Below are positions 24,297 through 59,700 of a DNA stretch of 64,000 nt, piece after piece (positions within the stretch are counted from its first letter, which is position 1; each line of letters begins with the position of its first letter). The notes under the pieces are model-generated. The model did no database searches. It was not told the origin of the DNA and worked only from the letters and a program-made list of their open reading frames with translations. A program made the translations under genes and the position numbers. This DNA is from Isoetes taiwanensis (taxonomy: Eukaryota > Streptophyta > Lycopodiopsida > Isoetales > Isoetaceae): contig JAJEKV010000302.1 of the NCBI GenBank assembly GCA_021234155.1, positions 248,001-312,000 on the forward strand, written 5' to 3'.

Positions 24297-24460
24297 TGTT
24301 GTGTGGGGGATTTGAACCCTGATCATTGATCCCACAACCCCTCATTCTAACCACTAGACCAAGCATTAGTTTTATAAATCATTTATGTTTCAATTACACT
24401 TAAGGGTAACATTCTAATTAAGATAAAATAGAGTATAACATTTTAGCTATAGTTCAAAAG

Positions 24461-25170: not shown

Positions 25171-25835
25171 CAAGAACTTGCACCGTAAGAACATGCTAAA
25201 ACTCGTACATGCACCGTAGGACGCATTAAATTCCTTGTATATATCATTATATTTATAAAATTATTCTATGTGTCCCAGGGAAACGATGCACCCATGGTTT
25301 ATATAATGTGCTAAAAATATTTGACGCTTCTTTGCCGTCGGATTGGGGGCACTGGTTAAGTGGCGCGACATGGGCCATTGGATTATGGATGGGTCATGCA
25401 TGGGACATACATGGCCATGCATGGGGGCATGCAACACATCTCTAGACCATCAGATCAAAAAGGGGAGGCAAAATCATGGCCCTTGATTTTTAATAGGAAG
25501 GTGCAAGGAAGCTTCCTTCAAAGTGGATTTGGTGCAATCAATCTCAACCGTTAGATCAAAAGGGGGAGAAGAAATCCCAGCCATTCATTTTTTTATTAAA
25601 TTAGAGTTTTTTATATTAAAGGGGTGAGGTGTCACCCTTATTTAATGAAAAGGTAATGAGGTGGCACCCCATTAATTATGAAGCTTTCATGGAAGCTTCC
25701 TTCTTTTGTGTTGCATTCAAACGACTTTATCTTGCGATCGAGATCTCGGATCAAAGTGGGACCCACACCGTTGGATTTCTCTCATCGAATGCTTTCCAAT
25801 GAGTAGTGGTTTGACATCATTCCGTGCAACCTTGG
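25171..25835. other. Spacer between satellite blocks
   Basis: Single-copy-looking AT-rich sequence without a gene. From about 25,570 onward it is shared, inverted, with 56,520-56,775, including GAGGTGTCACCC, GGAAGCTTCC and CGATCGAGATCTCGGATC words. Confidence 0.6.
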
Positions 25836-27095: not shown

Positions 27096-27880
27096 TGGCA
27101 CTGCTTTTTTGGCGTCTAATCGAATTTGTACGATCCCTCATAGTACAATCACTTGTATATTATATACAAGTTTTTGTACTATCAATGGGTCTATTAACTA
27201 TGGTTTATGAACATCTTGGAGTAAAATCCAAGTTATGAATCAAGTTGAGCAGCCAAGAATTGAGGTGGAAGTCATCGATAAATAATAAAATCTGTTTGTT
27301 CAAGTCGAATTCAAGTATCATAATCCAACAATTTATCGTCATCACATCCTCTCGCACGAATGGTAGTGTGCAATTAAAGCTAAATTCCTTTACTAATAGC
27401 CATTCAATGAAGCTTGGGCACAGACAAATAAGAAAGTCAAAATTATTGATCACGAAGTCGAACTAAATACAACAATCTAAGGCATTTGCGGGATCCCATG
27501 TGAAAGTTCTCTAACATTGAAAGTTTCATAATTTTGTCAAATGATAAAATTTAAAAAAAAAAAATATATTACTACTTGCAAAACAATGTCCAACATTGGA
27601 AGCGGGGTGCCTTTGTCTCAGATAAGTCGAATTCAATGTCTCCTCTAACAAAGAACATAAGCGTATTTGTGTACTTCTTTTGGAATATTGAATAACAGTT
27701 TGTCGCCCTTCAAAAAAAAAAAGAACATAAGCGTATTTGTTGAACAAACTACAGGAAATACACAACCTACCCAAATTGTGAATGCTAAGTCATTTGAGGG
27801 TTGTTATATTCCCAATCATCTCGATCGGAAGCCAATCTTTTAGATTGAAAACTATGGATCCCCAACAAGTGTACAGTGTG

Positions 27881-29404: not shown

Positions 29405-30175
29405 TAACAAATTTGCCAATGGCGCTAATAAATGCAAAGTGCACACATGTCGCGGCTTTGATAACTCGCAATAAATGCAAAGCATATTAATGGCGCAATA
29501 AATGCAAAGTGCACACATGTCGCGGCTTTGATAACTCGCAATAAATGCAAAGCGCACTAATGGCCTAATAAATGCAAAGGGTATTAATAGCCGCGAATAA
29601 ATGCAGAGTGCACACATGTCGCGGCTTTGATAACTCATAATAAATGCAAAGCGTATTAATGGCCGCAATAAATGCAAAGCGTATTAATGGTCGCAATAAA
29701 TGCAAAAGGTATTAATGGCTACAATAAATGCAAAGTGCACACATGTCGGGCTTTGATAATTCGCAATAAATTAAAAGCGTATTAATGGCCACAAAAATGC
29801 AAAGGTGTATTAATGGCCGCAATAAATGCAAAGTGCACAAAACCGCCATAAATAACGATGAATGCAACGTGTCATCCTATGGTAATGCTCATATCTTCCT
29901 CCGCCATAAATGCTCATAAATGCCCGCAATAAATGCTTTATAATCAATGAATGCACACAATATTCGAGGTTATTAATGGCTGCAATAAATGCTTTACAAT
30001 CAATGAATGCACACTGTACACGTGTCATGTAATCACGTCAACATCACGAAATATTCGAGGTTACCGCAATAAATGCTTTATATAATCAATGAATGCAAAA
30101 ATGAATGCAAAGAAGGTTATTAAGTGGCCGCAATAAATGCTGCAATAAATGCTTTATAAGTAATAAATGCACACA
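29405..30175 (+). repeat. AATAAATGCAAAG minisatellite
   Basis: Tandem units of about 28-30 bp with the core GCAATAAATGCAAAGCGTAT, interspersed with a longer unit that contains CACACATGTCGCGGCTTTGA at about 29,444, 29,512, 29,610 and (diverged) 29,739. The right half shifts to an ATGAATGCA/ATAAATGCTTTAT form. Open frames across it are repeat artefacts. Confidence 0.85.
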
Positions 30176-37992: not shown

Positions 37993-38001
37993 CCATAAAT
38001 A
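37993..38001. repeat. 9-bp target site duplication, left copy
   Basis: CCATAAATA, identical to 49,196-49,204. A 9-bp duplication is the hallmark of Mutator superfamily insertion. Confidence 0.95.
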
Positions 38002-38800
38002 GGCTCAGGATAGTCTTACCCTGGTTTCGGGGATCCCGGAGGTAAAAAAACCGTCCTCCGGTATCACCGCTGTGGCTCGGCGAATCGTTTAGGACCCCCC
38101 GTTTAGCCCGTCTTGACACGTGAGGGGTCTGCATAAATCTGGAGCGTCGACCCGCCTTGACACATCAGGGCCGTCCGGTGGTGTTCCGCCTCATTATCAC
38201 CAGCGCTGATCCGCCCTCGGAATCCGTGAAGCGCTGATCCACCGCCTCGGGGATCCGCTGACTACTGGCCGATAAGCGCCCCGTCTCCGTAGTGTGTAAT
38301 GATCCCCTCCTCGGGATAAGCCATCGGCGTGGCGATATCGGCCACCGTCTCGCCACGATCGGCCTGGGGATCACCACCATGGCGACTTCGAGGCCGGCCT
38401 CGAGACAGTGGAAATCCGACCTCGGGGATCACCCACCGCCCGGTAGCGATTCCTTCCTCGGGGATCCTGCCAGAAGCCCGGAATAGCGGCGGACCCGATA
38501 TCGGACGCGTTATCCCGCCTCGGGATCACCAAGCCTGGCCGTCGCCGTGTGTCGGCGGGTGTGTGTGATCCTCACAGGGATCGCCATCGCGTGGCCGATA
38601 TCGGCAACCCGATATACGCCACCTGATCCCGGCCTCCGGGATCACCACCATGGCCGACTCAGGCCGGCCTCGGGGACCCGTGGAAATCCCGGCCTCCGGG
38701 ATCACCCACACCGCCGGGAGCGATTCCTTCCTCCGGGATCCCCGAAAGTCCTTCTCGGTGAAAACCTCCTCCGGGATCACCACTGCCTTGACGAAAGCCG
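38002..38800 (+). repeat. MULE left terminal inverted repeat
   Basis: Pairs with about 48,300-49,195. The outer 65 bases match almost perfectly (GGCTCAGG, CCCTGGTTTCGGGGATCC, AAAAAAACCGTCCTCCGG); the inner part is built from a roughly 300-bp GC-rich unit repeated about twice, with GGGATCACC about every 40-80 bp and words such as GGCCGATATCGG and CCACCATGGC. Open frames across it follow composition. Confidence 0.9.
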
Positions 38801-38990
38801 GGGGCCGTCCACGTGGTTCAATCGATGCCATTGGTTTGAATTAATGCCTGACGGCCTAGGTCAGTGTCGTACGCCATCCACTAATGGTGTAACCGGAGAG
38901 CGGGAAAACCGCCAGTTATTCGTACGGGCCCAATTGCGAGTCGCCACGTGTACGGTGGGGGATTCCGGAGGAAGGGAGCACAGTGGTGCG

Positions 38991-41487
38991 ATGGCTATGT
39001 CCGAACTAAATGCCAAGAAGCGATTGCCCTTCCCGCCGGAATCGATTGGAAAGGGCCCGATTCTTCGCCGAATCGAGAGGCCGCCGGCCATGCAGACCAT
39101 CTGCCGAGTATTTAAAGGTAAGCGCCATGGACGCATCCGTTGTTAAAGTCTATTTTAGTCTTATTCTAACCGGTTATGTTATTTTACAGATGATGGAGGA
39201 GTCGATTAACTTCGAAATCAGCCTAAATACCTCCATTAACGAGAACTGGAATGGGGAAATGGAAGGAAACTTCGGCTTGGCCATTGCCCGACCGCCTCAA
39301 AGATATTTGCTTCATTGAATCCGACCAAGAGGTTCAATCCAGAACAAGAAGAGATTAAGGGCGTAAGCAAGAGCTAAGGGCGCTTCACCACGAGAAGAAT
39401 ACCCCGCTTTGCCGGGGGACGAGGCTTCAGATTGATGGCCAATGCCACGAAAAAAGCGGATGATCTAAAGAATGCTAAAATGCGGATGAGGGGATGAGGC
39501 CCCGAAAAAGTAATATTGAATGTTTTAACGTCAATCCAAGGGAGGAACCGACCATCAAGAAATTTTGAAGGACTACGTATGATCGTCGGTCGAAAATGGC
39601 GTTGTCGGTGGATGGCGGCAAATCCTACAGCCAGGAAGATCGAACCGGAGAATCATAGGTTTGTGGTGCATCAATTATGGCAAAATTACAGGCTTCGGAT
39701 GTCTCCGAGGGGTCGAATTCAAGAACAAATTTGAGGTGAGGGTTAGAGATTATGGGAAGATAAGTGTGGAGAGATCTCTTGATCCCGACTTCAAATTTAG
39801 CCAACCGAGGCTAAAAACTTGAGGAGGGCAAGGGCAGCAGCAGAGCGTATGGCGATGAGCAAATCGCCCTCGGCCTTTTTGGATGACACTACCGAAAGCC
39901 GAAGTTTATAAACCCGCAGTCTTGCGGAGAAAGGAGGCCACGTAACTAGAAATGCGGTAGAGCGGATAAGGGAAATCAAGGAAAGGATTAGGGGCAAGCA
40001 TGGCAATTTGGATGAGAAGGATTTGTTTGGTGATTTGAGCTATGAACGGCACCAGTTGGACGAAGACGATGTGAGTGCGGAGTTTGAAGTCGCGATACGC
40101 TTTGATTTTAATTCACCTCCGCCCAAAACCCCAAATTCGAATAGCCCAAGTCTACTGGTGACCCCAAGGAAGCGGACTTTTGTGCGAGCCAGGAGGGATG
40201 GGAGATTTGATGGCTCCAAACCATATTGTGCATGAAGAATCGAGGAGGAGGAGGAGGAGCTCGAAAATGCACCGGATGAATTGGCTCCCGAGGCCAGAGC
40301 AAGATAAAAATGTGGTATTTGTATATTTGGACCCCCACTTCTTTGAATCTCTAAAATTATATGTGAGGGATTAGAAAGGAGCTTTGGCGGTTTTAGATTT
40401 TCTCTCAATTATCCAATTGTGGTTCAAAGTCCTCTCGTTGAAGGTGGGCGACAAATCATCCGATGTTGAATTCCACATCTCGCAGACGAGGCACGAAAAT
40501 TTCGACTATTCCGGTGACCTCTAGATTGAAGATTCGAGAGATCGATGCCGAACGCCTAGGAGCCTATTTTTCATTGTATGTGTGTTGTCTTTGTTTTTAT
40601 TTCTTGCATGGTATGCTAAGTTGAGCTTTTGGCGGGGTTCTTGCACACTCAATTCCTCACCAAAAACTTATTTGTCATCATGTCTTCCTCCACCCTGCCG
40701 CTTTTGGCCCTGTTTCTAAATGGCACAAAACCGGGCCTCGTGGTGCCTACTGACGAGATTCGTCAAGCTAATTCCGGGATCCCCTTTGGCAAGGCCGTGT
40801 GGAAAATCCAGTATGCACAGTTCTACTACATACCGGTCAATGCCAGGTAAATTGGGTTTGGGACAATGCCTTTTTAGTTCTGGTTTGAATTGATGACAGC
40901 TTGTCCTATCACGGTGTACTTTGGAGCCTCTTCATTTTGGTGGCTGATCCTTTGGCATGCCAGAAATTGAAGAAGCCTTGCCCTTGCATATTGCACTTCG
41001 ATTCCTTTGATCCCCTCCATGCTCCAACACGCGGGTTCATCACTTTGTGAGTGCAAAATTTGGTAACTATTCATTCATAGCCTATCTTCTAATGCCTTGA
41101 ATTGCAGGTTTTTAAGTGATGTATTTAAGAGGTGGAGGCACGAGGAATCAAAGATCGCATAATGCACCGGTAATCTTGATGGAAGCTCCATGGCAAAGAC
41201 AACAACCAGGATTGTGGCATCTATGTTATTGGTTGTGTGCAGAAATTCATCAAAGAAATCTACATGAAGGATATAGATGTGAGTTGTCTATGTCTTAACT
41301 TCTGTCTTTCTTGATCAGCAAATTTATTTAGTGTCCATTTATAATCTACTGTGTACAGATGGTGATCCACAGGGACTGGTTTGCCAAAGAAGAGATGGAC
41401 AATTTGAGGACAAGCTTCAAGGTCATGTCAGAAGTTAAAGGATCGCCTAAAAGCGGGAAAATCAACCTTCTACTTGCCCGAGGGTAG
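38991..41487 (+). pseudogene. MULE cargo gene with C48 (Ulp1/SENP-like) protease domain
   Basis: A first exon may start at ATG 38,991 just inside the TIR (ending FK|GTAAGC, acceptor TTTTACAG at about 39,189). The middle part (39.5-40.4 kb) is charged and poorly conserved. The catalytic domain is clear: FGKAVWKIQYAQFYYIPVNA (about 40,790-40,846, donor GTAAAT), an exon with SYHGVLWSLFILVADPLA and CILHFDSFDPLHAP (His and Asp of the triad), a GTGAGT...TTGCAG intron, FLSDVFKRWRHEE, MEAPWQ, then NNQDCGIYVIG (oxyanion Gln and nucleophile Cys at about 41,209-41,215) and WFAKEEMDNLR before a TAG at 41,487. Ulp1 enzymes cleave SUMO or related tags. All catalytic residues are legible, but two frameshifts near 41,160 and 41,200 and breaks upstream make this copy non-functional. 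Confidence 0.7.
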
Positions 41488-41849
41488 CAACCAATTCGAT
41501 CGACCCGTTACCCGTTTGATGCTGAATGGTCCATAACAGAAAAAAACTTTTGATCCTTGTTCAACAATGTAAATTTTTTTGCTATGATTGTAAAATATGA
41601 CAGTTTCAGAATGGTTAATTGATGTGGGAAATAGCTTTTGTTTTTCCTTATCCGGGGTTTACTCCCGGCAATCAATGCATCCCTCAATTCATTCATAGAT
41701 GTTGGCCATGATGTTTGGGAATTTGAACACCCTGGGATCCCCAAACTTGAATAGCTCGGGATCCCCGAAGTTTGAACACCTCCGGGATCCCCAGGGAGGC
41801 AAATATTAAAACAACCAATGGAAAAGACAAACACAAAAAAAAAACCATT
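41488..41849. other. Spacer with CGGGATCCCC words
   Basis: Downstream of the protease gene, the short phrases GGGATCCCCAAACTTGAAT, TCGGGATCCCCGAAGTTTGA and CCGGGATCCCCAGG at 41,735-41,795 introduce the hairpin blocks. No gene is present. Confidence 0.5.
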
Positions 41850-43350
41850 ATTGTGGTGATCCCAGAGGACGGGTTCCCCATGGTGCTCCCCACCTCCGGG
41901 ATCAACAGATGGCGGACGGGAATATAACCATTGTACCTAATAGGCAGGAAAAAAAAAATAAAGTCCGTCCGCGATCTGGTGATCCCGGACTGGTGATCCC
42001 CACCTCCGGGATCACCAGATCACGGACGGGAATAAATTCGAAAACCTTAGAACCATAGAGCCTTAGGAAAAAAAAGGTCTGCCCACACGGTGATCCGGAG
42101 GTGGGGATCACCCATGGTGATCCCCACCTCCGGGATCACCAGTGTGGCGGACGGGAATATAACCATTGCACCTAATAGGCGTGGGAAAAAATAAAGTCCG
42201 TTCAGGATCCGGTGATCCCGAGGTGGGGATCACCACCGGTGATCCCGACCTCGGGATCACCGAGATCACCTGACGGAATAAATTGAAAACCTTAGAACCA
42301 TAGAGCCTTAGGAAAAAAAAGGCCCGTCGCCACCGGTGATCCCGGAGGTGGGGATCACCCATGGTGATCCCCACCTCCGGGATCACCAGGTGGCGGACGG
42401 GAATATAACCATTGCACCTAATAGGCAGGGAAAAAAAAATAAAGTCCGTCCGCGATCTGGTGATCCCGGAGGTGGGGATCACCACTGGTGATCCCGACCT
42501 CCGGGATCACCAGATCACGGACGGGAATAAATTCGAAAACCTTAGAACCATAGAGCCTTAGGAAAAAAAAAGGCCCGTCCGCCACCTGGTGATCCCGGAG
42601 GTGGGGATCACCCATGGTGATCCCCACCTCAGGGGATCACGGTGGCGGGGGAATATAACCATTGCACCTAATAGGCGGGGAAAAAATAAAAGTCGTCATG
42701 ATCGGTGATCCGGGAGGTGGGGATCACCGGTGGTGATCCCCCCACCGGATCACCAGATCACCTGGACGGAATAAATTCAAAACCTTAGAACCATAGAGCC
42801 TTAGGAAAAAAAAGGCCCGTCCCACACGGTGATCCTGGGAGGTGGGGATCACCCATGGTGATCCCCACCTCCGGGATCACCGGTGGTGGCGGGAATATAA
42901 CCATTGCACCTAATAGGCAGGGAAAAAAAAATAAAGTCCGTCCACATCGGTGATCCCGGAGGTGGGGATCACCACTAGTGATCCCGAGCCTCCGGGATCA
43001 CCGTGATGACTCGACGGAATAAATTCGAAAAGCTTAGCACCATAGAGCCTTAGAAAAAAAAAAGGCTGGTCAGCCACCGGTGATCGGAGGTGGGGATCAC
43101 CATGGGTGATCCCCACCTCGGGATCACCGGTGGCGGACGGAATATAACCATTGCACCTAATAGGGGGAAAAAAAATAAAGTCCGTCCCATGATCCGGTGA
43201 TCCGGGGTGATCCCCACCTCACCGGGATCACCGGATCCTGGGAATAAATTCGAAAAGCTTAGCACCATAGAGCCTTAGAAAAAAAAAAGGCCCGTCCGCC
43301 ATCTGGTGATCCCGGAGGTGGGGATCACCACCGGCGATCCAGTCATCCGG
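41850..43350. repeat. Hairpin array, block 1 (about 13 palindromes, two alternating types)
   Basis: Roughly every 120 bp there is a near-perfect palindrome of about 60-80 bp whose half is GGTGATCCCGGAGGTGGGG followed by ATCACC. Two types alternate: one flanked by GTCCGCCACCTG (for example 42,322-42,402 and 42,572-42,652, centre CCATGG) and one flanked by GTCCGCGATCTG (for example 42,445-42,527). Linkers alternate too: AATATAACCATTGCACCTAA with AATAGGC, and AACCTTAGAACCATAGAGCC, each ending in an A-run. The full two-palindrome unit is about 240 bp. Small indels distinguish the units. Confidence 0.92.
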
Positions 43351-43748
43351 GATCCCCAAGCGTGGACTCCGCCCCTCCAAGGGATCCCCACGGCAAAAAA
43401 AATAATAGAGGTACCTAGCCATTGGAAAAAAGGTCCACTTTACCACTTTACCATTACAAATTGAAATCAAGGGTTAACCGTTGTACAACGGATAGTACAA
43501 CGGTTGATTCATGAGTCTATATATACCTTAGTGGTTCTTGCTAGAAAGTAAGTTGGGGCTTGGTTTCAATTGAGTTCAGTAGAGTCGAGTGATGATGGTG
43601 AGGACCGACAACAAACTACAAAGCTAGGTATAAAGTGCCATCAATGCACCACGACTTTGAGGATATTCTCGCCCACTTGAATGAAATTGAGAGGAAGTGG
43701 GGCTAGATCTCGCCAAACCGACAAAGATCAAAACGTTCCAAAGTAAGC

Positions 43749-44162
43749 ATGTTGTTGTCTTCCTTCACATTTATGTTCTACTTTCATACTAATCTTTTCA
43801 AACCATCTTTGCATGATCCCCTCATGGTTCATGCGAGAGACCGTGGAGAATGGGGAATACAACACGAGAGACCCCTAGGCCTCACGGACAATGATCCCGG
43901 TCGGCCAAGCCACAGGGCATTGCTTTGGGAATTGAAGAAGTGCATTATCCAGGGCAAGGCTTTGAAGAATTTGCTAGCTACGGACATTGTCTGGGAAGGC
44001 AACACCCTAAAAGCCTGCTTCGAGGAAATGTATGCTGCACGGAGGATGCGAAAGAAGGTTCTAATTAGGGAAGTCCTAGAGGGGTCTGATCCATCTTTAT
44101 GCGACATCTTCGATCACATCATGTGGACACTACCTGCGTGGTGTGCGGATGTAACTTCTTGA
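43749..44162 (+). CDS. Small ORF between the hairpin blocks
   Basis: A 137-codon frame whose middle and end look like real protein: LLWELKKCIIQGKALKNLLA, then EGNTLKACFEEMYAARRMR and SLCDIFDHIMWTLPAW. The composition is balanced with helical stretches. A preceding open piece (about 43,640-43,740, with HHDFEDILAHLNEIERKW) ends at a donor-like AAA|GTAAGC, so the coding part may begin upstream and be spliced to about 43,830. I do not recognise a family. It has the same orientation as the Ulp1-like gene and could be its distal exon or a separate cargo. Confidence 0.35.
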   Translation: MLLSSFTFMFYFHTNLFKPSLHDPLMVHARDRGEWGIQHERPLGLTDNDPGRPSHRALLWELKKCIIQGKALKNLLATDIVWEGNTLKACFEEMYAARRMRKKVLIREVLEGSDPSLCDIFDHIMWTLPAWCADVTS

Positions 44163-44369
44163 GGACGTCGGGCGAAGGCATGGCAACAGTGCTTGATGTT
44201 GATTCAGAATGATTCGGAATTAGAATGTCAGTTTTAGGCCATTGTAAGGCCCCATTGTAACTTAAGATCCATTTGAAACATGCAAATGAATTGAATTAAA
44301 CCATTAGGAAATAAATAGACCTTAGAACCATGGTACCTTAGGGGGAGAAAAAAAAATAAAAAATGAATC

Positions 44370-45000
44370 CCGTCCGCCAGCTGGAGATCCCGGAGGTGGG
44401 GATCACCACACGTGATCCCATCCTCGGGATCACCAACAGCGAACGGATTAAAATTATAACCTTAGAACCATTTTATGCGTTGGGGAAAAGAAAATAAAAA
44501 ATAATCCGATTCCTGCCACGGTGATCCAGGAGGTGGGGATCACGGTGGTGATCCCCACCTCAGGATCTCCACCGGGCGGACGGATTAAAATTATAAACCT
44601 TAGAACCATTGTACGTTGGGGAAAAGAAAATAAAAAATAATCCCGTCGCCGCTTGGGTGATCCAGGAGGTGGGGATCGCGTGTGGTGATCCCCACCTCGG
44701 GATCACTCCGCAGCGGGCGGATTAAAATTATAACCTTAGAACCATTTATGCGTGGGGAAAAGAAAAAAAAAAATAATCGTCCGCTGCTTTGGTGATCCCG
44801 GAGGTGGGGATCACCACACGTGATCCCATCCTCCGGGATCACCAGCAGGCGGACGGGATTAAAATGATAACCATAGAACCATTGTACGTTGGGGAAAAGA
44901 AAATAAAAAATAATCCCGTCGCTGGCTTTGGTGAGGTGGGAGGTGGGGATCACCACACGTGATCCCATCCTCCGGGATCACCAGCAGGCGGACGGGATTA
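44370..45000. repeat. Hairpin array, block 2 (about 5 palindromes)
   Basis: Five further palindromes, spaced about 130 bp, with the same core (GATCCCGGAGGTGGGGATCA) but arms starting GTCCGC and linkers TAAAATTATAACCTTAGAAC and GGGGAAAAGAAAATAAAAAA. The last two (about 44,775-44,855 and 44,925-44,995) are nearly identical. The 3' side grades into AT-rich ACATTTA repeats at 45,020-45,100. Confidence 0.88.
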
Positions 45001-45181
45001 AAATGATAACCATAGAACCATTGTACCATTTACCATTTAAACATTAACATTTAACATTTAAACAAAACATTTAACATTTACCATTTAAACATTACATTTA
45101 GTGATATTCGGCTCATTGAAAGATTGAGAAATAAAAGTCATGTTCGATTCGAGAGTCATGTTCAGGTCCCGAATTTGGGCC

Positions 45182-47975
45182 TCATGGTGCCTTGCATGAG
45201 GCCTCCATCTGAAGTTCCTTCCAACTCTTCCTTGCTTTCTTCACCTTATGTTTTCCAAGTTCTATATACTTGGGCTTCAGCCGTGACAAGCTAGTACCAC
45301 AATTCACCTCCAAGGTAAGTTCGGGTAGAGTTGATATATTAGTGCTCGTGCCAACTATGTCATCCATCTTCTCAAGTCTAAAGTCGAGCTGCCTCATGAG
45401 AGAATCAGTTGCAACTAAAACGTTAGGATCTTTTTGAGCCCTAGACATCACTCTAGCAATTACCGCTTCCAAGGAGGCCTGAGTCTTGTTCAAGTCCACT
45501 TGACTGCTTGTTTGCAAGGGAGACTCTTCCCCGCGCGCTACCTCAAGCACCTCCGATCCCCTGGTCTCCACAACTCTCTTGCACGGCCAGTATTGCTTGG
45601 TGGTCCATGCCCCCACCTATTGTCCCATATTGGGAACCCAAACACTGTAAAAGAGATCTTGATCCCTGTAATTGCCAAGCATTTGCATAACTTTCACCTG
45701 ATGCTTACATAGATTACCCTTGGCTCCCCAAGGACAATCACAACATGCCCAATTCTTGTGTGCTCCAGCAACAAAGTACGGGCCCTGTCCAAGAGTGCGC
45801 TCGGTTTGCACTTCAGCCTCGCCCTCCTCGAAGTTGGTAATTGTGACTTGTTCGTCGGCAATTCTCCGAGCGCCTCTAATTGCGCACTCTACTATTTGTT
45901 CCTGTGAGGTGTTCACTACAAATCCATGTTCCTTCATAGACCTAGAACATAGCTATATATCAACCATTTGCAAGGTAAGTTTGCAATATAAGCCATGTAA
46001 GTTACCTCATATAAGCCATGTGTGTCTCCACATTGTTAGTGAGAATGTAGAGCAACCAGTCAATTCTCCTGCCTCGAAGTGCACGTTTACATATGCCTAG
46101 GCGCAACTTAAGGGCAGCATGCCATGCCTCTATGGCAGCATTGGTCTCTTGATTGGAGTGCATGTACATTCTTGTAGCCAATACCCATTCACAGATGTTC
46201 TTAGTCCACTCCTTACTCATGTAGGCCGACAATTTAGGGTATTGAGGATACTTCCTCACCAACTCTTCCAATCTCTTGATAGCCTCTTTCCTAATGACTT
46301 CCCCTGTACTCATGACCATACTCATTGTCCCCTATAGGACCCTCTGTCTTGTACATTATATTCCCTAGCTCCTTGAACATTTCATTTCTATGCACCTTAC
46401 TCCTTACATTTTTGCTTAGCCACTTAATCCAGGCTCTTCTCACATGCCAAATGCATACAGGCACGTTTGGGAAAACCTACAAGTGTTAGTGTTAGAAAGT
46501 ATGCAAGAAAGTATAACTTGGGGGAAAATTGCCAGGCATCACTTACATTTTTTACCGCCTTGATTTCAAAGATCGATCGCGCGTGGGTTATGATGCAAGA
46601 AGGGTGCCATCCGGATCATCCCTGGCATAATGAATCCTTTAGTGCTTTCAACCACTTAGTTATAGCCCTACTTTTTGAGAATTGGTTATGACATATGCCA
46701 ATGGCATGCCATTGCAATGGTCATCGAAGGCAATGAGTGTAAAAAAGATAGTACCTCGCATAATTGAAACCCTTAGCCGCCATCATTGCATCTTGAATTT
46801 TAAACCAATAGATGTCATTGCATGATTGAAACCAACTGCATTAGCCATTTTAAAGTGACTATGGAAAAGAACTAGAATGGAAATGAACTCTTACAAGTGT
46901 ACCTCTTGTCATTAGTTTTGAAGGTTGCATCCATGCAAATGGCCCTATTCTTTCCAAATTTCAGCATTGCCTCTCTTTGGATTGGAGTCATCACTCCCAA
47001 TTGGAACGTGTCACCATGTTCATACAAGAACACGGACTCTAGATGTTGTTGCACCCACATGTTGATGCTAGTGGGAAGGTCTTCATGTAGCTTCCAAGTG
47101 TTTCTAACAACACTCTTCTCAATGTTGTAAACATCCCGAATCTTCAGCATGTCATCCCTACACAAACTATCCTTGCCATGCACATCTACTTTAAATCTCC
47201 ACCTCTCCTCGTGCATGTTCATAACACTTCGTGGGGTGTGCCAATGCACGAGCTTTTCTCTAACCCATTCCCTCAATTCTGTGAGATCCACGGTGCTAGC
47301 TTGAATCGACACCTTTCTCTCGTCAACAAATTTACCATGGCAAGGCTCACCTTGGAGATTTCTATGCTCAAACCCATAATAAGTAACTTGAGAGCATTGC
47401 GGGAGAAGGTAGAGTTGCCTAATGGTAAAATGGCATTGGCAGCCCCACGCACACTCTCACCCCTCTCAACTCTTTTTTCTGCGTGTGCGGGTTGGCCGGG
47501 GTCCATCGGCAACCCGTGAGTGTTCAAAGTCTTGTCCAGGGGACCATATGTGCACCAAGTACCTATTTTGAGTGTTCAAAATTAGTGCATGAAAGTAGTG
47601 CATGTACATCTAAGAATTAAATATATACCGCTACAATGTTTTCTACTACATAAACAACAACAACAACAACAACAAGAAACTAGAGGATAGGGTTTTTAAA
47701 TACATACCTTTTCATAGTCAAATAAGAATCCCTGGTTGGCCTCTTTAGCACCCTCTCGGGGATTGGAACTCCTTAAGTAGAAGCCGCGGTGCCACACAAT
47801 TTCTTTGCTCTCCAAGAATGAAGTCTTCAACCCGGTTTGTTGGGAGGTAGCGAGGTCCACACAAGCATTTCTCCCACCTCCCTGCATGAAGGAACTTGGT
47901 GCTCTTCTCGAAACCGTGTAGGTTGCTATGGTCGAAAATGCCATTAGGGGTGACTCCACATGTATTTCAAAGACG
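45182..47975 (-). pseudogene. MULE transposase with SWIM zinc finger
   Basis: Reading leftward: an N-terminal exon (about 47,975-47,708, FLESKEIVWHRGFYLRSSN), then TYGPLDKTLNTHG, a Cys/His region with FEHRNLQGEPCHGKFV, a helical stretch and AICMDATFKTNDK (first catalytic Asp, about 46,920). After an intron come TLIAFDDHCNGMPLAYVITN, HPSCIITHARSIFEIKAV|VFPNVPVCIWH (46,541/46,475 intron, GTAAGT...TTGTAG), SNQETNAAIEAWHAALK (the catalytic Glu region, about 46,160) and the SWIM finger CCDCPWGAKGNLCKH (about 45,730). The second catalytic position reads His (IITHA) where the family has Asp. There is one TGA and at least three frameshifts (near 47,385, 46,680 and 46,310). It catalysed cut-and-paste of this element family; this copy is dead. 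Confidence 0.85.
47652..47678 (+). repeat. (AAC)n microsatellite
   Basis: About eight AAC units inside a transposase intron. Confidence 0.9.
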
Positions 47976-48299
47976 CAATTTGGGAATGGCGAGAAAGGGA
48001 ACTCGGATATCGTTTTTACCTCCTAAAAATGATCTTAAGCAGATAAATACATGCTATCTTCTCCTCCAGCCCCCAAACGTCCATAGCTGCAAGGGGCAAC
48101 GAAGAAAGAGCTAAAGAAGCAGAGAAATTCTCCGTCAGGCGGCAAAGCCAGCGCAGAGAAATTTCGAAGACAAATGTGCGATCCCCGAGGGTGGTTTCGA
48201 CGCCCTGTGTCCACATCGGATGGTTGGTCCGCATGGGCTGACATGTTCAAAATGGCCGCGACGATCATTCCACGCCGCTGGCCACCGCCGATTTTCATG

Positions 48300-49195
48300 C
48301 AAATCGTGACGTGGGGATCCGGAGGAAGGAATCACCACCGAGGTGGTGATCCCGAGGCGGGGATAACGAGGCGGATATCGGATCGCCGATATCGCCCCAC
48401 GTTGGTGATCCCGAGGCAGGATAACGCCGATATCGGGTCCGGCCTGCTATCGCCGATGGGTGATCCGGGAGGAAGGAATCGCCCCGGCGGGTGTGGGTGA
48501 TCCCGAGGCCGGGATTTCCACCGTCCTCGAGGCCGGCTCGAGTCGGCCATGGTGGTGATCCCGAGGTCGGATCGTGGCGATATCGGGTTGCCGGCATCGC
48601 CACGCGATGGCGCATCCCCGAGGAGGATCACACACACGCCGACACGGGCGGGTTATCTCGCCAGTATTTGGTGATCCCGAGGGGATAACGGCCGATATCG
48701 GTCCGCCGCTATCGCTTCGCAGGGGTGATCCCGAGGAAGGAATCGCTACTCCGGCTGTGGGTGATCCCGAGGTCGGATTTCCACGTCTCGAGGCCGGCCC
48801 GAGTCGGCCATGGTGGTGGTGATCCCGAGGTCGGATCGTGGCGATATCGGTGGTCGACATCGCCACGCCGATGGCTTATCCGAGGAGGGGATCACACACG
48901 CCGGATCGGGCGCCGGCGACGGCCAGGCTTGGTGATCCCGAGGAGGTGGATCAGCGCCGGGCGATTCCCGGGAGGGCGGATCAGCGCTGGTGATACCGAG
49001 GCGGGAACACCACGACGACGCCCGATGTGTCGCGCGGGTCGACGGGCTACTAGATTTATGCAGACCCTCACGGTGTCGTAAGACGGGCTAAAACGGGGGT
49101 CCTGAAACGGATTCCGTCGAGCCCTGGCGGTGATACCGGAGGACGGTTTTTTTACCTCCGGGATCCCCGAAACCAGGGTAAGACTATCCTGAGCC
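48300..49195 (-). repeat. MULE right terminal inverted repeat
   Basis: Reverse complement of the left TIR with extra internal units. GGTGATCCC occurs about every 40-80 bp. The inner side (48,130-48,300) is transitional. The end reads AGACTATCCTGAGCC and abuts the right target duplication. Confidence 0.9.
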
Positions 49196-49204
49196 CCATA
49201 AATA
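49196..49204. repeat. 9-bp target site duplication, right copy
   Basis: CCATAAATA, identical to 37,993-38,001. Confidence 0.95.
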
Positions 49205-49476: not shown

Positions 49477-51204
49477 AAAGGGATCCATACTCATAATAAA
49501 TGCAATAAATCTAGGAATTTACAACTTGCATAAACACATAATAACCAATATTTTGTTGCATGACGAATTTCCGGTCTAGTCATTCACATAAAAAATCTCG
49601 AATCCAAGTGGGAAAAGTTAACACTAAAATCTCGAATCCAAGTGGCAATCCAATTGGTATATATAAAATACATAAGATAAGATCTCCATTAGAAAATACA
49701 TGGAGAAGGTCAATTTTTTCATATATGTGCTCATAGAAAATACATGGTGTCCATTAGAAAATACATAGGATAATATTGTGTTTATTAGAAAAATACATAG
49801 GATATGGTGTCCATTAGAAAATACACAGATTATGGTATGCATTACAAAATATATAGGATATGATGTCCCATTTTTTACTAGCTAAATTCACATTCAATAG
49901 AATATTCTATCACTTAATCTTGAGGCTTGTCAGTTAGTAAGTTGTAAACTTTGTTTAGCTCGAATATCGGGGTACATTAGGATTAGGTCCAATTAGTCAT
50001 AATTTGTGCTCCATGATATTGAAGCTATAAACCATGTTTGTAGGCGCCACACTTGTTGCATGTTTGAGCACATTTGAACAAAAATATAGTAATACAATAT
50101 AGTATTTGAGTCGATTTTTTGCATTGGGTTAATTTCGTGCGCCATGTGGCGACGATTCAATTGAGAATGGTACTTGAATCTACCATTCGCATCTCGGTTT
50201 CTAGCCGGTTAACAATCCTCTATTTCTTGCCAGTTAACAACTTTGTTAGTCTGTTTCCAGCAGAGCCAAGCTTGATCAATCCGACTCTATTCAAACCAAG
50301 ACAGCGTCATTCGTAGTTTGAATCCATAGCTTTTTACCCCTGTAAAAAGGGCCGTAGCTTCTTCATCATGCAGGGCAAGATGTCTTGGATCCATAGCAAG
50401 TCGAGAAAGACCTTCAGGCATCGTTTTTCCACTGGGCCCTGTGTTTTTCACTCGAGCTACCTTCGCGACTCGAGAAAGGGTCTTGTACCTACCTTTTTTT
50501 CACTCTCAACTTGTGAGTCGAGAAAGGCTCTCAGACCTGGTTTTTCAAATATGGCCTTCAGAACTGGTTTTTTACTTTATTTGTCTTGTCTGTAGCATCA
50601 CTTGATTAACTTCATTCTATCTTTTGCAGTCCTTAGCAGGACTCGATAGTACATTTTTGAGGGCAATAGAAAGACATGTTCATTGAAGAAGGAGGCAAGA
50701 AGAGGGTGGTGACATCGGTTGAAATGCCAACGCTAGGCCCATGAAGCACCTCCTCATACAGATTTCTATTATATTCAAGTTGTTCTCGTGGCTTAGAACA
50801 CGTCGGAGAGTGCTCCACATGACATTGGCATTAGGTGGTCCATGTGTGAAGAGAGTGTAATCGTTGTGACAACATGGCCGCTATAGTATCTTCATCCACT
50901 GTAATATACATTGTAATGAACCCAGTTTTTAAATATGAATTCTTAATTTTTGTTGGACTTTGTGATTTTTTGTCTATGCATCTGAGAAAAAAGGGTCGAA
51001 ATGTCTTGGTAACGGTATTCACCCTCACACAGAAAAATGTTTAATTTCAACGAGTTGACTGGCCATCGAGAAAAAAGTGACAAAATTGTGTGAAATTGAA
51101 GACTGGAAAAATCAAATGCTGAACAAAAGCAATGGACTTTTTGTAAATAAGTAGACCTTACTGATGCCAAAGCACACATCAGAAAAAGGTAGCAGGGGTG
51201 AAAT

Positions 51205-51690
51205 GTTTTTAATCAAGAAGTTTGTTTATTTGCAATCCAATTCCTACTATCGCCTTCCCAAAGCTTAGTTACACCGAGCCTCTTGCACGCGTGCAGCACA
51301 CCATCAACAATGGGGTTAGTCACAGGGACTAAGTGGGGATTGAGGTTATAGGACATGCCTAAGCATCATCAACATAATGCATCCATACAAAAACAATAAC
51401 TTAACCTTACCGTGGCCTCGCCCCTGAAACTCAAGTTAGTAATCCATACAAGCATGTCTCACAATGCACAATTTACCCATGAATAGCTACTACATACTAC
51501 AACCATTGTAATTCAATACAAGACATCCCAATTAACATAATAACAACTTAGCAACCATGGACAACCAATATTCCTCTGGGTCTGAGCATGGTCAACTCGG
51601 CTGATCAGGCCAGTGACATAGAGGCGGGGTAAACCACATGTGTACACACCCATCAAAGCGTTAAAGGCCCAAAGATTGGAGGACCACTTA
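51205..51690 (-). mobile_element. LTR-derived segment, copy in duplication A
   Basis: About 480 bp shared with 58,520-59,005 and with the LTR remnant at 62,527-62,985. It is a retrotransposon fossil without coding capacity. Confidence 0.6.
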
Positions 51691-52859
51691 ACTGTGCAAG
51701 ACGTTGTACCCTAAGGTACCAACGCCCGATGTTCCAAATAAACCATTTACATATCATTGTGCATATATCATAGCATATTCCAACAAGAAATTCTTAATGT
51801 CAACCAAATTTGTGTGGCAAACCATAATGCCATATTAGTGGGTAACCAAGCACACCATGGGACATCCCAAAAACATGCTTTTAACAATAATCCATGCATG
51901 CATAATTGTACTTTACTAAGCCAACCAAATCAGGAATATCCTTTAACTAATTGCAGCCATTAACAACAAGCACATTCTTTTCATTTACATACAATAATCT
52001 ATCTTTGATTATGTTAATTCAATTCAGATCATGCCTCAATCCATTAAATCTACAAATCATCATCAAAGCTCATTAAGCTTTTCCAAAACACGTCAACCAT
52101 GACATAGACATCACAAGAACCCCAGGTGTAAGACTTGACCCCCACCTGGAAATACTTTGTTTCTTCTCCTCGGTTCAATTTTGATCAATCTAGTGCAAGC
52201 GCATCCACCACAACAAAAACAAAGAAGGCTTCTTTCCCATGGAAAACTCCTTCCCAAGAATCAAACATAATATTGTTGCGCTTATATAACCTAGCAATGC
52301 CCTTGCATGCATGCACACACTGCATGCATGGACACATTGCATGCATGCATTCCTAGCACATAATCATTTATTTTACCATTGAAAATGCACTCTTATATAA
52401 TGGCAACGTTGCTTACATCTTAATGTTGGTGCTAGGTTGCTAGGTCCGTTACAGTCTCTCCTCCAAAAATTCAGCCCATGTCCTCATGGGTGCATCTTAG
52501 GGCACTCATGAAAAATCCAGTTTGTATCTCCCTTTGTGACATCTTCCTTGGAACAAACCCAACCATTGAGCTAAATTTTTTTTTATAGTCCGCCTCCTTA
52601 ATTCCCCGGGTCTCTTCCTTTTATGCCTTCACATCTTAATCCTCGATTCAACATACTCCCAAATGAATACAATTTCGTTCCTCAGAACTGACCCATCCTT
52701 GTCAAACACAATTGCTTAGCCTTCCAATCCAAGATGATGCCTCTCCAAAGTTGAAAGTTCAAAGCTAGCTTCATACAAGTAATTTAAGCTAAAGGAGAAA
52801 TACATATTAGATAGCTCCAATGCATGACCCTTCTAACATTCAATTTAACATACCGTCGA

Positions 52860-53181
52860 GGGTAAAAGCATGTTAGGGTGTACCACTTTTGGAACCTGCA
52901 AAAGTACATACACTAGGTACTTCTGAACTGGGTACTTTCTCATTTTTCTTTTCATTAAAACTAATACAAAAATCCAAAATAAAAGTCAAGGACATGGTAA
53001 TATTCAAAGTTAAGATAAAGATAATGCTATCGGAGATCAATATATATATAAAAAGTTCTAAAACATACCTTATATTGAGATATTATACAGGTACCCAGTA
53101 CCCAGTCCTGGCTACCTTTTTAGGTACCTTTTTAGTCACTAAATAATACTTTTTAAGGGACACCCTAACATGCTTTTACCC
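52860..53181 (+). mobile_element. MITE, 322 bp, copy in duplication A
   Basis: Terminal inverted repeats start GGGTAAAAGCATGTTAGGGT and end with the reverse complement. The flanking 4-bp TCGA at 52,856-52,859 and 53,182-53,185 is a target duplication; copy B has the uninterrupted site at about 60,490-60,500. The interior is AT-rich and non-coding, with sub-terminal GGTACC-type words. Length and lack of genes make it a MITE. A 4-bp duplication is unusual (Sola-type transposons make 4 bp), so the superfamily is open. Confidence 0.9.
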
Positions 53182-54253
53182 TCGAGTCTAGAACTAACTC
53201 AAATATTAATAACATTGAGTATACTTTATGCATCAATAACAACAAAAGGAAAAGAGGAACATACATATCCAATTCAATATAATAAAAGTAATGCAGTTAA
53301 TACAACTTTTCATAAAGAAGGTACGTGCCATAGAAAAAAAAGCCCACCATTCCAAAGAGAAGGTACATTCCATAGAAAAAGTAATCTCTCGAGACTTCTT
53401 GGGTGGCCAAATCAAAAAAGTAACAAGCAAAATACATAATCAAGTCCCCCAGTCTCGGTATCTTATAGCTAGGTAACACACTTAAGTTGATACAAGGGAT
53501 CCCATAAGAATTATAGCCCATGGTACAGAGAATTCCTCTACGAGTTCAACCAATGACATTGAAGTATCCTGGGCTATACACTTGACCTCTATATCTAGCC
53601 TACTTCCATACATATTACCCCATCACACTGCTTTGTCTTTCAACAAGATTTTATAGGCACCAATTGCCGTTAATTTCAATGAAGCTCTTACTTCATGTAT
53701 TTCGTTCACAACTTCAATCCTTTGACTATATCCTTAATCAAGTAATGCAATCTCCATCCCTCCATTAATCTACAATCACTTCTAGCATGCCAAATAATTA
53801 CGATACATGGAAGCACCATTACTAGATGTGCTTACAACTCTTCTATTACATTCTAAGATTTTCAAAGATGGCACTTCCCCATGTCTATACATTCCCCTCT
53901 GCCTTTATCTCATGTCTGGGCTTTATCTGACAACTCTTTCGTTCAACTTCATGGCTTACCTAGTACCACGATTAAATATGGTATTCCTCTATTCGTCGTC
54001 GTCGTCTTCTTCCTTATCCATAAGATGGATAACATTGTTCTATCTTGGCCAATCAATTCTTCAATCTGCCATAATTTAAGTGGATATCATTCTCTAAGTA
54101 TAAATGCATAACCTGACCACTTTGTTCCATTAAGTGCTTTCTTATACTCCAAGAATTTTTTTCAAGGCCAAGAACTTTTTCAAGGCTATGACCGACTATT
54201 CTAGCCATAACCCTAGGGTCAACAACTTTATACACCTCAAGTAGGACCATGAT

Positions 54254-55684: not shown

Positions 55685-56775
55685 AGCTTATATAATTGTA
55701 TATATATACAAGTGGTTATACTATAAGGGACTGTACAAATTCGATTAGATGCCAAAAATGCAGTGCCATCCAACGAAGATTCTATTAGGATTCTCCTAGA
55801 TTCTCCAAGGCTCTAGAAAGATTTCCCTAGATTCTATGAGATTCCATCAATGATGATTCCTCGAGGGATTGTACAAATTCGACTAAAAATCAAATTTAAA
55901 GTCATGCGATGAAGATTCTCTAGATACTCAAAGATTTTATAAAGATTCCCTTAGATTCCTCTAGATTCTTAAAGATTTTCCTGAGATTCCTCTGGATTTT
56001 CAAAGATTATCCTAAGATTCCTCTAGATTCCCCAAGATTCCATGTAGATTCTTCTAGATTCCCTTAGATTCTACGAAGATTCCCTTGTAGAACACACCTA
56101 TTGTCAAAGATTTCCATATATCCCCTTGGATTCCCCCTAGATTCCCTAAGATTCCACAAAGATCCCCTAGATTCTTAAGGTTTTTACAAAGATTCCTCTA
56201 GACTTTCAAAGATTATCTAAAGATTCCTTTAGATTACCCAAGAGTCTATGTAGATTCTCGTAGATTCCCTTAGATTCTAGGAAGATTCCACTAGATTCTC
56301 TAAGATTCCATCAAGGTTCCCCTAGATTCTGAAATATTTTTTAAAGATTCTCTTAGATTCTCTTAGATGCTTTTGGAATTCCCATAGATTCCTTAAGATT
56401 TTCTTGAGATTCCCTTGATTCCCAAAGATTATCCCAAAATTCCTCTAGATTCCCCAAGCTTCTACATAGATTCTCTTAGATTCCCTTAGATTTTATGAAG
56501 ATTCCCCTAGATTATCCAAGATTGCACGGAATGATGCCAAACCATTACTCATTGAAAAGCATTCGATGAGAGGAATTCAATGGTGCAGGTCCCACTTTGA
56601 TCCGAGATCTCGATCGCAAGATAAAGTCGTTTGAAGGCAACACAAAAGAAGGAAGCTTCCATGAAAGCTTCATAATTAATGGGGTGCCACCTCATTATCT
56701 TTTCATTAAATAAGGGTGACACCTCACCCCTTTAATATAAAAAACACTAATTTAATAAAAAAATGAATGGCTAGG
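55685..56775 (-). repeat. Inverted second copy of the satellite core (cf. 25,570-27,170)
   Basis: Reverse complement of 25,570-27,170 in shortened form: the terminus with TATATACAAGTGG, the GTACAAATTCGATTAGATGCC phrase, about 730 bp of AGATTCCC/TAGATTC satellite and the non-satellite flank with GGAAGCTTCC and GAGGTGTCACC. It is cut at its right end by duplication copy B, which begins at 56,776. Confidence 0.88.
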
Positions 56776-59700
56776 AAAGGGATCCATACTCATAATAAAT
56801 GCAATAAATCTAGGAATTTACAACTTGCATAAACACATAATAACCAATATTTTGTTGCATGACGAATTTCCGGTCTAGTCATTCACATAAAAAATCTCGA
56901 ATCCAAGTGGGAAAAGCTAACACTAAAATCTCGAATCCAAGTGGCAATCCAATTGGTATATATATAAAATACATAAGATAAGATCTCCATTAGAAAATAC
57001 ATGGAGAAGGTCAATTTTTTCATATATGTGCTCATAGAAAATACATAATATATGGTGTCCATTAGAAAATACATAGGATAATATTGTGTTTATTAGAAAA
57101 ATACATAGGATATGGTGTCCATTAGAAAATACACAGATTATGGTATGCATTACAAAATATATAGGATATGATGTCCCATTTTTTACTAGCTAAATTCACA
57201 TTCAATAGAATATTCTATCACTTAATCTTGAGGCTTGTCAGTTAGTAAGTTGTAAACTTTGTTTAGCTCGAATATCGGGGTACATGAGGATTAGGTCCAA
57301 TTAGTCATAATTTGTGCTCCATGATATTGGAGCTATAAACCATGTTTGTAGGCGCCACACTTGTTGCATGTTTGAGCACATTTGAACAAAAATATAGTAA
57401 TACAATATAGTATTTGAGTCGATTTTTGCATTGGGTTAATTTCGTGCCGCCATGTGGCAGACGATTCAATTGCAGAATGGTACTTGAATCTACCATTCCG
57501 CATCTCCGGTTTCTAGCCGGTTAACAATCCTCTATTTCTTGCCAGTTAACAACTTTGTTAGTCTGTTTCCAGCAGAGCCAAGCTTGATCAATCCGACTCT
57601 ATTCAAACCAAGACAGCGTCATTCGTAGTTTGAATCCATAGCTTTTTACCCCTGTAAAAAGGGTCGTAGCTTCTTCATCATGCAGGGCAAGATGTCTTGG
57701 ATCCATAGCAAGTCGAGAAAGACCTTCAGGCATGCGTTTTCCACTCAGGCCTGTGTTTTTCACTCTGAGCTACCTTTCTCGACTCGAGAAAGGGTCTTGT
57801 ACCTACCTTTTTTTCACTCTCAACTTGCGAGTCGAGAAAGGCTCTCAGACCTGGTTTTTCAAATATGGCCTTCAGAACTGGTTTTTTACTTTATTTGTCT
57901 TGTCTGTAGCATCACTTGATTAACTTCATTCTATCTTTTGCAGTCCTTAGCAGGACTAGATAGTACATTTTTGAGGGCAATAGAAAGACATGTTCATTGA
58001 AGAAGGAGGCAAGAAGAGGGTGGTGACATCGGTTGAAATGCCAACGCTAGGCCCATGAAGCACCTCCTAATACAGATTTCTATTATATTCAAGTTGCTCT
58101 CGTGGCTTAGAACACGTCGGAGAGTGCTCCACATGACGTTGGCATTAGGTGGTCCATGTGTGAAGAGGGTGTAATCGTTGTGACAGCATGGCCGCTATAG
58201 TATCTTCATCCACTGTAATATACATTGTAATGAACCCAGTTTTTAAATATGAATTCTTAATTTTTGTTGGACTTTGTGATTTTTTGTCTATGCATCTGAG
58301 AAAAAAGGGTCGAAATGTCTTGGTAACGGTATTCACCCTCACACAGAAAAATGTTTAATTTCAACGAGTTGACTGGCCATCGAGAAAAAAGTGACAAAAT
58401 TGTGTGAAATTGAAGACTGGAAAAATCAAATGCTGAACAAAAGCAATGGACTTTTTGTAAATAAGTAGACCTTACTGATGCTAAAGCACACATCAGAAAA
58501 AGATAGCAGGGGTGAAGTGTTTTTAATCAAGAAGTTTGTTTATTTGCAATCCAATTCCTACTATCGCCTTCCCAAAGCTTAGTTACACTCCAGAGCCTCT
58601 TGCACGTCTGCTTACACCATCAACAATGGGGTTAGTCACAGGGACTAAGTGGGGATTGAGGTTATAGGACATGCCTAAGCATCATCAACATAATGCATCC
58701 ATACAAAAACAATAACTTAACCTTACCGTGGCCTCGCCCCTGAAACTCAAGTTAGTAATCCATACAAGCATGTCTCACAATGCACAATTTACCCATGAAT
58801 AGCTACTACATACTACAACCATTGTAATTCAATACAAGACATCCCAATTAACATAATAACAACTTAGCAACCATGGACAACCAATATTCCTCTGGGTCTG
58901 AGCATGGTCAACTCGGCTGATCAGGCCAGTGACATAGAGGCGGGGTAAACCACATGTGTACACACCCATCCGCGTTGCGTCCAGCATTGGAGGACCACTT
59001 AACTGTGCAAGACGTTGTACCCTAAGGTACCAACGCCCGATGTTCCAAATAAACCATTTACATATCATTGTGCATATATCATAGCATATTCCAACAAGAA
59101 ATTCTTAATGTCAACCAAATTTGTGTGGCAAACCATAATGCCATATTAGTGGGTAACCAAGCACACCATGGGACATCCCAAAAACATGCTTTTAACAATA
59201 ATCCATGCATGCATAATTGTACTTTACTAAGCCAACCAAATCAGGAATATCCTTTAACTAATTGCAGCCATTAACAACAAGCACATTCTTCTCATTTACA
59301 TTCAATAATCTATCTTTGATTATGTTAATTCAATTCAGATCATGCCTCAATCCATTAAATCTACAAATCATCATCAAAGCTCATTAAGCTTTTCCAAAAC
59401 ACGTCAACCATGACATAGACATCACAAGAACCCCAGGTGTAAGACTTGACCCCCACCTGGAAATACTTTGTTTCTTCTCCTCGGTTCAATTTTGATCAAT
59501 CTAGTGCAAGGGTAAAAGCATGTTAGGGTGTCCCTTAAAAAGTATTATTTAGTGACCAAAAAAGTACCTAAAAAGGTACCCAGGACTGGGTACTGGGTAC
59601 CTGTGTAATATCTCAATAAAAGGTACATTTTAGAACTTTTATATATATTTTGGTCTCCGGTAGCATTATCTTTATCTTAACTTTGAATATTAATGCGTCC

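Follow-up and report, generated by a model that had tools for sequence, protein, structure and literature searches.

A multi-gene Mutator-like element family of Isoetes taiwanensis with a C2H2-Ulp1 protease gene and one dyad common to its terminal repeats and hairpin arrays

The element and its family

We analysed a window of 64,000 nucleotides from the lycophyte Isoetes taiwanensis (contig JAJEKV010000302.1, positions 248,001 to 312,000 of the forward strand; positions below without a contig name are those of the window). Positions 38002-49195 are a complete Mutator-like element (MULE) of 11,194 bp. The 9-bp target site duplication (TSD) reported in a first-pass annotation of this DNA, CCATAAATA, flanks both ends with 9/9 letters identical, and the element coordinates given there proved exact. 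As a chance control, random pairs of 9-mers taken from fetched copies were identical in 14 of 200,000 trials. The ends start with GGCTCAGGATAGTC (terminal sequence, GGCTCAGG) and form the terminal inverted repeats (TIRs) that the annotation had described: their outer 81 bp are 95% complementary, and 38002-38743 and 48459-49195 can be aligned at 82% identity over about 740 bp. The protease gene on the plus strand, the transposase gene on the minus strand and the two hairpin blocks between them are likewise all present. A further gene, which was absent from the earlier gene list and is called the middle gene here, sits between hairpin blocks A and B. The features are as follows.

37993-38001, no strand: left target site duplication (CCATAAATA), same letters as the right copy
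38002-38743, plus strand: left TIR
39190-41540, plus strand: C2H2-Ulp1 (C48) protease gene, several exons, frameshifted; exons taken from sister loci, boundaries approximate
41855-43358, no strand: hairpin array A, from Tandem Repeats Finder; unit of about 124 bp, paired as about 245 bp
43518-43525, plus strand: TATATATA upstream of the middle gene, a possible promoter read by eye
43592-44212, plus strand: middle gene, two exons, one intron placed by eye; from genome matches and fixed orientation
44319-45026, no strand: hairpin array B, from Tandem Repeats Finder; unit of about 137 bp, same dyad as array A
45182-48020, minus strand: MULE transposase gene, several exons; from SWIM and MULE domains and substitution rates, outer boundaries approximate
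48459-49195, minus strand: right TIR
49196-49204, no strand: right target site duplication (CCATAAATA), same letters as the left copy

Long TIRs, a mark of most, not all, groups of the MULE superfamily, are thus found here (about 740 bp, 82%), and the duplications fall within the 8-11 bp of the superfamily. Rfam and ARAGORN scans of the window detected nothing.

The genome (1,658,258,908 bases in 1110 contigs) was searched with the outer 81 bp of the TIR, which gave 40 scored matches among 765 candidates. We read 19 loci, comprising the window, seven picked by their ends and 11 picked by their genes. Both ends are recognisable in 12 of the 19, and the 9-bp TSD is perfect at nine of them; among the other two-ended loci, C1101 has an 8-bp duplication with one mismatch, and C1038 and C1034b have none. 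At C1058, scanned another way, the TSD is 9 bp with one mismatch. These target duplications indicate past transposition of the family. Tandem Repeats Finder arrays between the genes occur as both blocks in 9/19 loci and as one block in 7/19, and are missing from 3/19 (C1018, C963 and C1058). The first-pass annotation had reckoned with a chance nest of unrelated repeats should further copies be lacking. Other loci do share the ends, the arrays and the protease, though two of the 19, C1018 (4.6 kb) and C963 (3.7 kb), are array-free internal deletion forms. Because the family is multi-copy and keeps one order of protease, arrays and transposase, and because other loci repeat the same ends, order and arrays, each with its own duplication, a chance nest was rejected and is so improbable that it can be set aside. 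The element is a real multi-copy cut-and-paste transposon, of a kind known from flowering plants and here in a lycophyte.

Two kinds of copies differ from the window in other ways. The copy in C1062 (G000:C1062:2238154-2268009; L017, L021, L018) has reached 29.9 kb through later insertions; inside it are open frames, long ones, that by eye resemble those of a long terminal repeat retrotransposon, and its TSD, CACCATAAC, is still perfect. The copies in C1028 (G000:C1028:17033500-17043499, L049) and C1058 (L048) form a distinct subfamily with ends starting GGCTCAAGATA and motif-bearing TIRs, whose protease is about 46% identical to that of the main family.

The gene layout was followed through the genome with four protein queries: the protease (417 aa; 107 matches from 1121 candidates), a divergent protease (458 aa; 102 from 1261), the transposase (261 aa; 146 from 1856) and the middle gene (138 aa; 150 from 1011), where only part of the candidates was scored and the counts are lower bounds. 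For the joining of these lists, 96 of the 107 matches of the first protease query were used (the other 11 are second pieces of included loci) and 53 of the 102 divergent ones were added (the rest overlap first-query loci or are second pieces), together with all transposase and middle-gene matches. A protease lies within 20 kb of 59 of the 146 transposase matches, and the two are convergent in 59/59; the remaining 87 have no protease match. It also lies within 20 kb of 47 of the 150 middle-gene matches, on the same strand in 47/47, and middle gene and transposase are co-located for 43 of the 150, convergent in 43/43. A missing partner in the joined lists means little, because the window itself was listed as protease-less owing to its frameshifts; both the window and C1100 were so counted among the transposase matches, yet both hold a decayed protease. 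The suggestion that some elements lack the protease, which came from 22 middle-gene loci where a 12-kb limit took in a transposase but no protease, was dropped: the divergent-protease search and the 20-kb limit cut such loci from 22 to 18.

Genes, hairpin arrays and a shared dyad

In sister copies, the protease gene is seen to join an N-terminal C2H2-like finger to a C-terminal domain predicted to be an Ulp1/SENP-type cysteine protease. The joined exons of C1028 match Peptidase_C48 (PF02902) at 8e-11 (42.6 bits, cut-off 20.7), and against PDB they match SENP7 at 6e-6 and, more weakly, Ulp2 (0.026) and Ulp1 (0.052). Among the 19 loci, the DCG motif of the catalytic Cys is readable in 16 and the GHW motif of the catalytic His in 11, and the finger pattern C-x4-C-x12-H-x4-H in the N-terminal exon is intact in nine. 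In the window we could place a finger remnant (about 39585-39720), the Asp exon (about 40922-41048) and the Cys exon (about 41201-41263), but the His motif is unreadable (LW instead of GHW), and the short exons gave no Pfam match. The ratio of nonsynonymous to synonymous substitution rates (dN/dS) at the protease N-terminus is 0.15 and 0.17 for C1028 and C1058 against C1038 (dS above 2), and 0.26 and 0.28 for C1099 against C1062 and C1038; 4 of the 10 protease pairs are saturated. The close pair C1028-C1058 has a ratio of 0.38.

The transposase gene is read from four open pieces on the minus strand (45182-45616, 45617-45937, 46002-46325 and 46872-47456). The second of these carries a SWIM zinc finger (PF04434, 21.9 bits against a Pfam cut-off of 19.6), which on the joined exons falls under the cut-off at 18.1 bits. 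The MULE domain PF10551 was found in exons joined from four copies (64.1 bits, cut-off 27.6, 1.6e-17) and was not seen by Pfam in the window's own open pieces scanned one by one. The pieces also match ZSWIM1-3_RNaseH-like (32.1 bits, cut-off 27.2), and ICMDATF in 46872-47456 holds, by eye, the first catalytic Asp. The transposase of C1028 compared with the others has a dN/dS of 0.06-0.11 (161-162 codons; dS of 1.3-1.8, near saturation). Within the main family, pairs with a dS of about 0.08 or more range from 0.10 to 0.57, and those that include the window from 0.34 to 0.57.

The middle gene encodes a protein of about 170 aa in C1038; in the window its frame is broken near the gene end. No relative of the protein was found in Pfam or PDB, and the gene was not detected in C1028 or C1058. 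A single-sequence AlphaFold2 model of the window exon has a mean pLDDT of 48, too low to be informative, and dN/dS values of 0.40-0.58 from six pairs of low divergence are too noisy for use.

The window copy looks decayed. However, its frameshifts are weak evidence of a dead copy, because they may be caused by Nanopore errors. The published assembly (1658.30 Mb, 204 scaffolds and 909 contigs) is described as combining Nanopore data (v9.4.1 flow cell) with data from Illumina and Bionano (PMC8566536). When the window genes (39100-48050) are compared with C1002, C1100 and C1101, small indels fall in CHG contexts 1.8-2.9 times as often as random positions do (a share of 0.25-0.46 against 0.13-0.24 in six comparisons). 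This excess may reflect methylation-linked basecalling error in the Nanopore assembly, which would inflate the number of apparent pseudogenes.

The state of the genes bears on a passive origin, in which the Ulp1 and middle genes would be captured host genes carried along and the arrays neutral satellite growth. Capture of ULP genes by MULEs is described as frequent and recurrent (PMC2528002), and many copies have stops or frameshifts. Such an origin is nevertheless highly improbable in our judgement: order and orientation are fixed in all co-located pairs, distant protease pairs have dN/dS well below 1, and open middle-gene frames persist down to 46-52% identity among the genome matches.

The TIRs and both arrays share one dyad, GTGATCCC-N7-GGGATCAC, which is nearly absent from the genes. 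Its half-sites (GTGATCC or GGATCAC) number seven in the left TIR (38002-38830), 44 in the array A region, 16 in array B (44300-45030) and 12 in the right TIR (48310-49195), 79 altogether. The protease gene has one, the middle and transposase genes have none, and 16 kb of flanking DNA has two; shuffled regions gave means of 0.05-0.77. Among the distances listed, facing half-sites lie 15-17 bp apart, start to start, in 24 of 26 such pairs, from which the dyad was derived. In the genome, GTGATCCCNGAGGNGGGGATCAC has 978 exact matches and the reversed pattern has none. The 8-mer GGGATCAC is at the top, tied for it or near it in the noncoding DNA of C1099, C1028 and C1058 and in the arrays of C1038. 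Proximity to genes was tested for the first 100 listed of the 978 dyads: 53 fall in the 12-kb zone around scored gene matches, which makes up 0.45% of the genome, and three more are near a protease found with the divergent query. Dense dyad arrays with no protease, transposase or middle-gene match within 12 kb were seen at G000:C57:186848-188196, C779:338043-339071, C336:17490-24670 and C481:32744-33426; these four are probably remnants or parts of related families that the search did not reach.

The dyad could also be a transposase binding site, where the TIR copies would serve cutting, the amplified internal arrays would titrate the transposase as decoys or recruit it as enhancers, and the function of the Ulp1 protein would lie elsewhere. 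This is the main rival to the reading developed below, in which the C2H2-Ulp1 protein is the binder, and we regard it as somewhat unlikely. The dyad is present in both TIRs and in both subfamilies read, each of which has a transposase, and C1028 and C1058 keep the motif though the middle gene was not detected there; in maize, MURA binds a conserved site inside the Mu TIRs (PMC3440606). Against a transposase site, the motif is densest well away from the ends, since the internal arrays hold 25.0 and 21.9 half-sites per kb and the TIRs 8.4 and 13.5, and the first 81 bp, the best conserved part of the TIR, hold by eye only partial versions of it.

Within array A, each unit has a 76-nt segment that forms a hairpin of 27-34 base pairs from two GTGATCC-N9-GGATCAC dyads, with A-rich linkers between the segments. 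Four array units of the window, folded as single-stranded DNA, reach z scores of -9.0 to -12.7 against dinucleotide shuffles, whereas two TIR stretches (-0.5 and -0.7) and two gene stretches (+1.2 and -0.8) do not stand out. The loop pattern, half-sites back to back with a short spacer, occurs 80 times (75 distinct) in 16 of the 19 loci, and was not found in C1018, C963 and C1026. Outer stems pair better within their own unit (5.45) than when arms are dealt at random (mean 4.47, maximum 5.27; 200 deals of 75 distinct units), a result that is only suggestive because the units share ancestry and are not independent.

These folds raise the possibility that the arrays work through their structure, as RNA or DNA: the hairpins would end convergent transcription in the gaps between the three genes, or they would give rise to double-stranded RNA. 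The strong folding, the stem pairing and the position of the arrays in the two intergenic gaps agree with such a role, and failed termination between the convergent genes of MuDR is reported to produce antisense transcripts (PMC3440606). We consider it quite unlikely, however. The motif also fills the TIRs, where the two stretches tested fold like their shuffles, and hairpin formation alone therefore does not explain the motif; palindromes can come from paired dyads or templated repair as well, and the shared ancestry of the units weakens the stem test.

Candidate function and relation to known elements

The first-pass annotation took the convergent genes as a possible mark of an undescribed lineage, which was not borne out. 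The two genes of MuDR are convergent (PMC3440606), and Kaonashi MULEs carry the ULP domain reverse to the transposase gene (PMC2528002), so the novelty of this layout was rejected. What looks distinctive is the combination of C2H2 finger and Ulp1 domain, a third gene, and one dyad common to TIRs and arrays, all in a lycophyte.

Several systems resemble the element in part. Maize MuDR is a TIR-MULE with convergent genes, as in the 59 transposase-protease pairs here, an accessory gene of unknown function (PMC3440606) and a 9-bp TSD (PMC9168764); the Isoetes element differs in its three genes, Ulp1 protease, hairpin arrays and middle protein without a Pfam or PDB relative. Barley Hvu_Abermu is likewise a TIR-MULE with a 9-bp TSD, and has three open reading frames, one of them opposite, but its TIRs are 138-145 bp and its hosts are monocots and dicots (PMC9168764); the words Ulp and tandem are absent from the main text of that paper. 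Kaonashi and KIU MULEs of Arabidopsis share the Ulp1 (C48) gene reverse to the transposase and several genes per element (PMC2528002, PMC13317346). Kaonashi elements are non-TIR (PMC2528002), whereas TIRs of about 740 bp, a C2H2-like finger and motif arrays are found here. In grapevine and melon, class II elements (MULE and CACTA) carry the Ulp1 domain, in TIR and non-TIR MULEs and in both orientations (PMC2528002), whereas ours shows one orientation in all co-located pairs.

The nearest functional parallel is the VANDAL/VANC anti-silencing system of Arabidopsis. The short motifs to which VANC binds stand in tandem repeats within the noncoding DNA of VANDALs, and VANC causes methylation loss (PMC5735166, PMC10398659) and changes faster than VANA (PMC5735166); Ulp1-domain VANC genes (KIU) have been described (PMC13317346). 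VANDAL21/Hiun and the Isoetes element both have three genes including a MULE transposase, a motif in noncoding tandem repeats and a fast-changing regulator or candidate for one (PMC5735166, PMC10398659). A VANC-like sign is that the protease changes faster than the transposase (dN of 0.42 against 0.11 for C1028 and C1038). The Isoetes element differs in its long TIRs, in the C2H2 and Ulp1 domains of its regulator candidate, in a motif that is a 23-bp dyad arranged as hairpins, and in its lycophyte host. Its mode of action may resemble that of VANDAL/VANC, but we do not class it as a VANDAL, since DUF1985 was not found and its TIRs are long.

We tentatively favour the view that this multi-gene MULE family is autonomous and that its C2H2-Ulp1 protein would bind the arrays and TIRs and counter silencing. 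The structure of the family is observed directly, and from comparison with known systems we infer the binding and the anti-silencing. The SWIM-type transposase would cut and paste the elements, leaving the 9-bp duplications. Recognition of the dyad in the noncoding compartments would fall to the C2H2-Ulp1 protein, by itself or together with the transposase or the middle protein, and there it would strip SUMO or otherwise block silencing, so that the terminal promoters might stay open, as with VANC on the tandemly repeated motifs of VANDAL noncoding DNA. The array units could then be amplified landing sites, their hairpin symmetry arising because the dyads are paired. A stronger version, which we hold to be unlikely, is a lycophyte sequence-specific anti-silencing system, independent of VANC or far older, in which the C2H2-Ulp1 protein would remove SUMO from silencing factors at targets that the family itself has spread, namely hundreds of palindromic hairpin arrays and TIRs.

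A number of observations weigh against the C2H2-Ulp1 protein as an anti-silencing binder of the dyad. One zinc finger usually reads only about 3-4 bp, and a 23-bp dyad would therefore need a dimer or another domain; the finger itself stays under the Pfam cut-off (17.8 and 15.8 bits against 25.2). The transposase is the only gene seen in every subfamily and is therefore an equally good candidate for the binder of the TIR motif. DUF1985, the VANC domain, was not found by Pfam in three N-terminal protease open reading frames (E limit of 5 for L017 and of 1 for L049 and L040). Parts of the window protease cannot be read, and copies with many frameshifts may reflect pseudogenes or errors in the assembly. 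For C1062-C1038, a close protease pair, dN/dS is 0.70. In the TIRs of C1038, 8-mers other than GGGATCAC lead. Among the 100 listed dyads tested, 44 have no scored gene match within 12 kb, which suggests that unreached related elements, or remnants, also carry the dyad. Finally, the orientation counts (59/59, 47/47 and 43/43) come from copies of shared ancestry and are not independent events.

In titles and abstract beginnings from open PubMed Central searches, the longer result lists being partly viewed, no description of this family or of a C2H2-Ulp1 MULE protein was found. One paper matching C2H2 zinc finger, Ulp1, transposon and Mutator appears to concern Ginger elements, and the main text of the Isoetes genome paper does not contain the word Mutator (PMC8566536). 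Ulp1 capture in non-TIR MULEs has been dated to the time when monocots and eudicots separated, in a paper that describes its role in them as unknown (PMC13317346). A conserved C2H2-Ulp1 MULE gene in a lycophyte, if true, would mean that the association is much older or that it arose a second time, independently. With 978 exact matches, against none for the control, the dyad provides a concrete DNA target, with which the role of a transposon-borne Ulp1 can be tested by DNA binding, and the outcome would show whether transposon anti-silencing through tandem motifs is a general plant strategy.

Other repeats and frames

Beyond the right end of the element, the window holds a direct duplication of about 4.8 kb, 49477-54253 and 56776-61563, in pieces at 97-99% identity (49477-52199/56776-59510, 52195-52860/59831-60497 and 53177-54253/60488-61563). 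An inverted pair lies within 24460-27170 and 55700-56780 (25575-27169 against 56776-55696, 87-89%); a 10/31-bp tandem unit resembling GGAATCTAAG is abundant in this pair, which looks like another repeat family with internal satellites. A tandem array at 29418-29833 consists of AATAAATGCAAAGCG units with periods of 27-126 bp. Elsewhere in the genome, open rbcL frames were noticed at G000:C840:20428-21354 (L051; full length, 475 aa) and C1052:5415903-5416829, which probably represent a plastid contig or recent plastid insertions.

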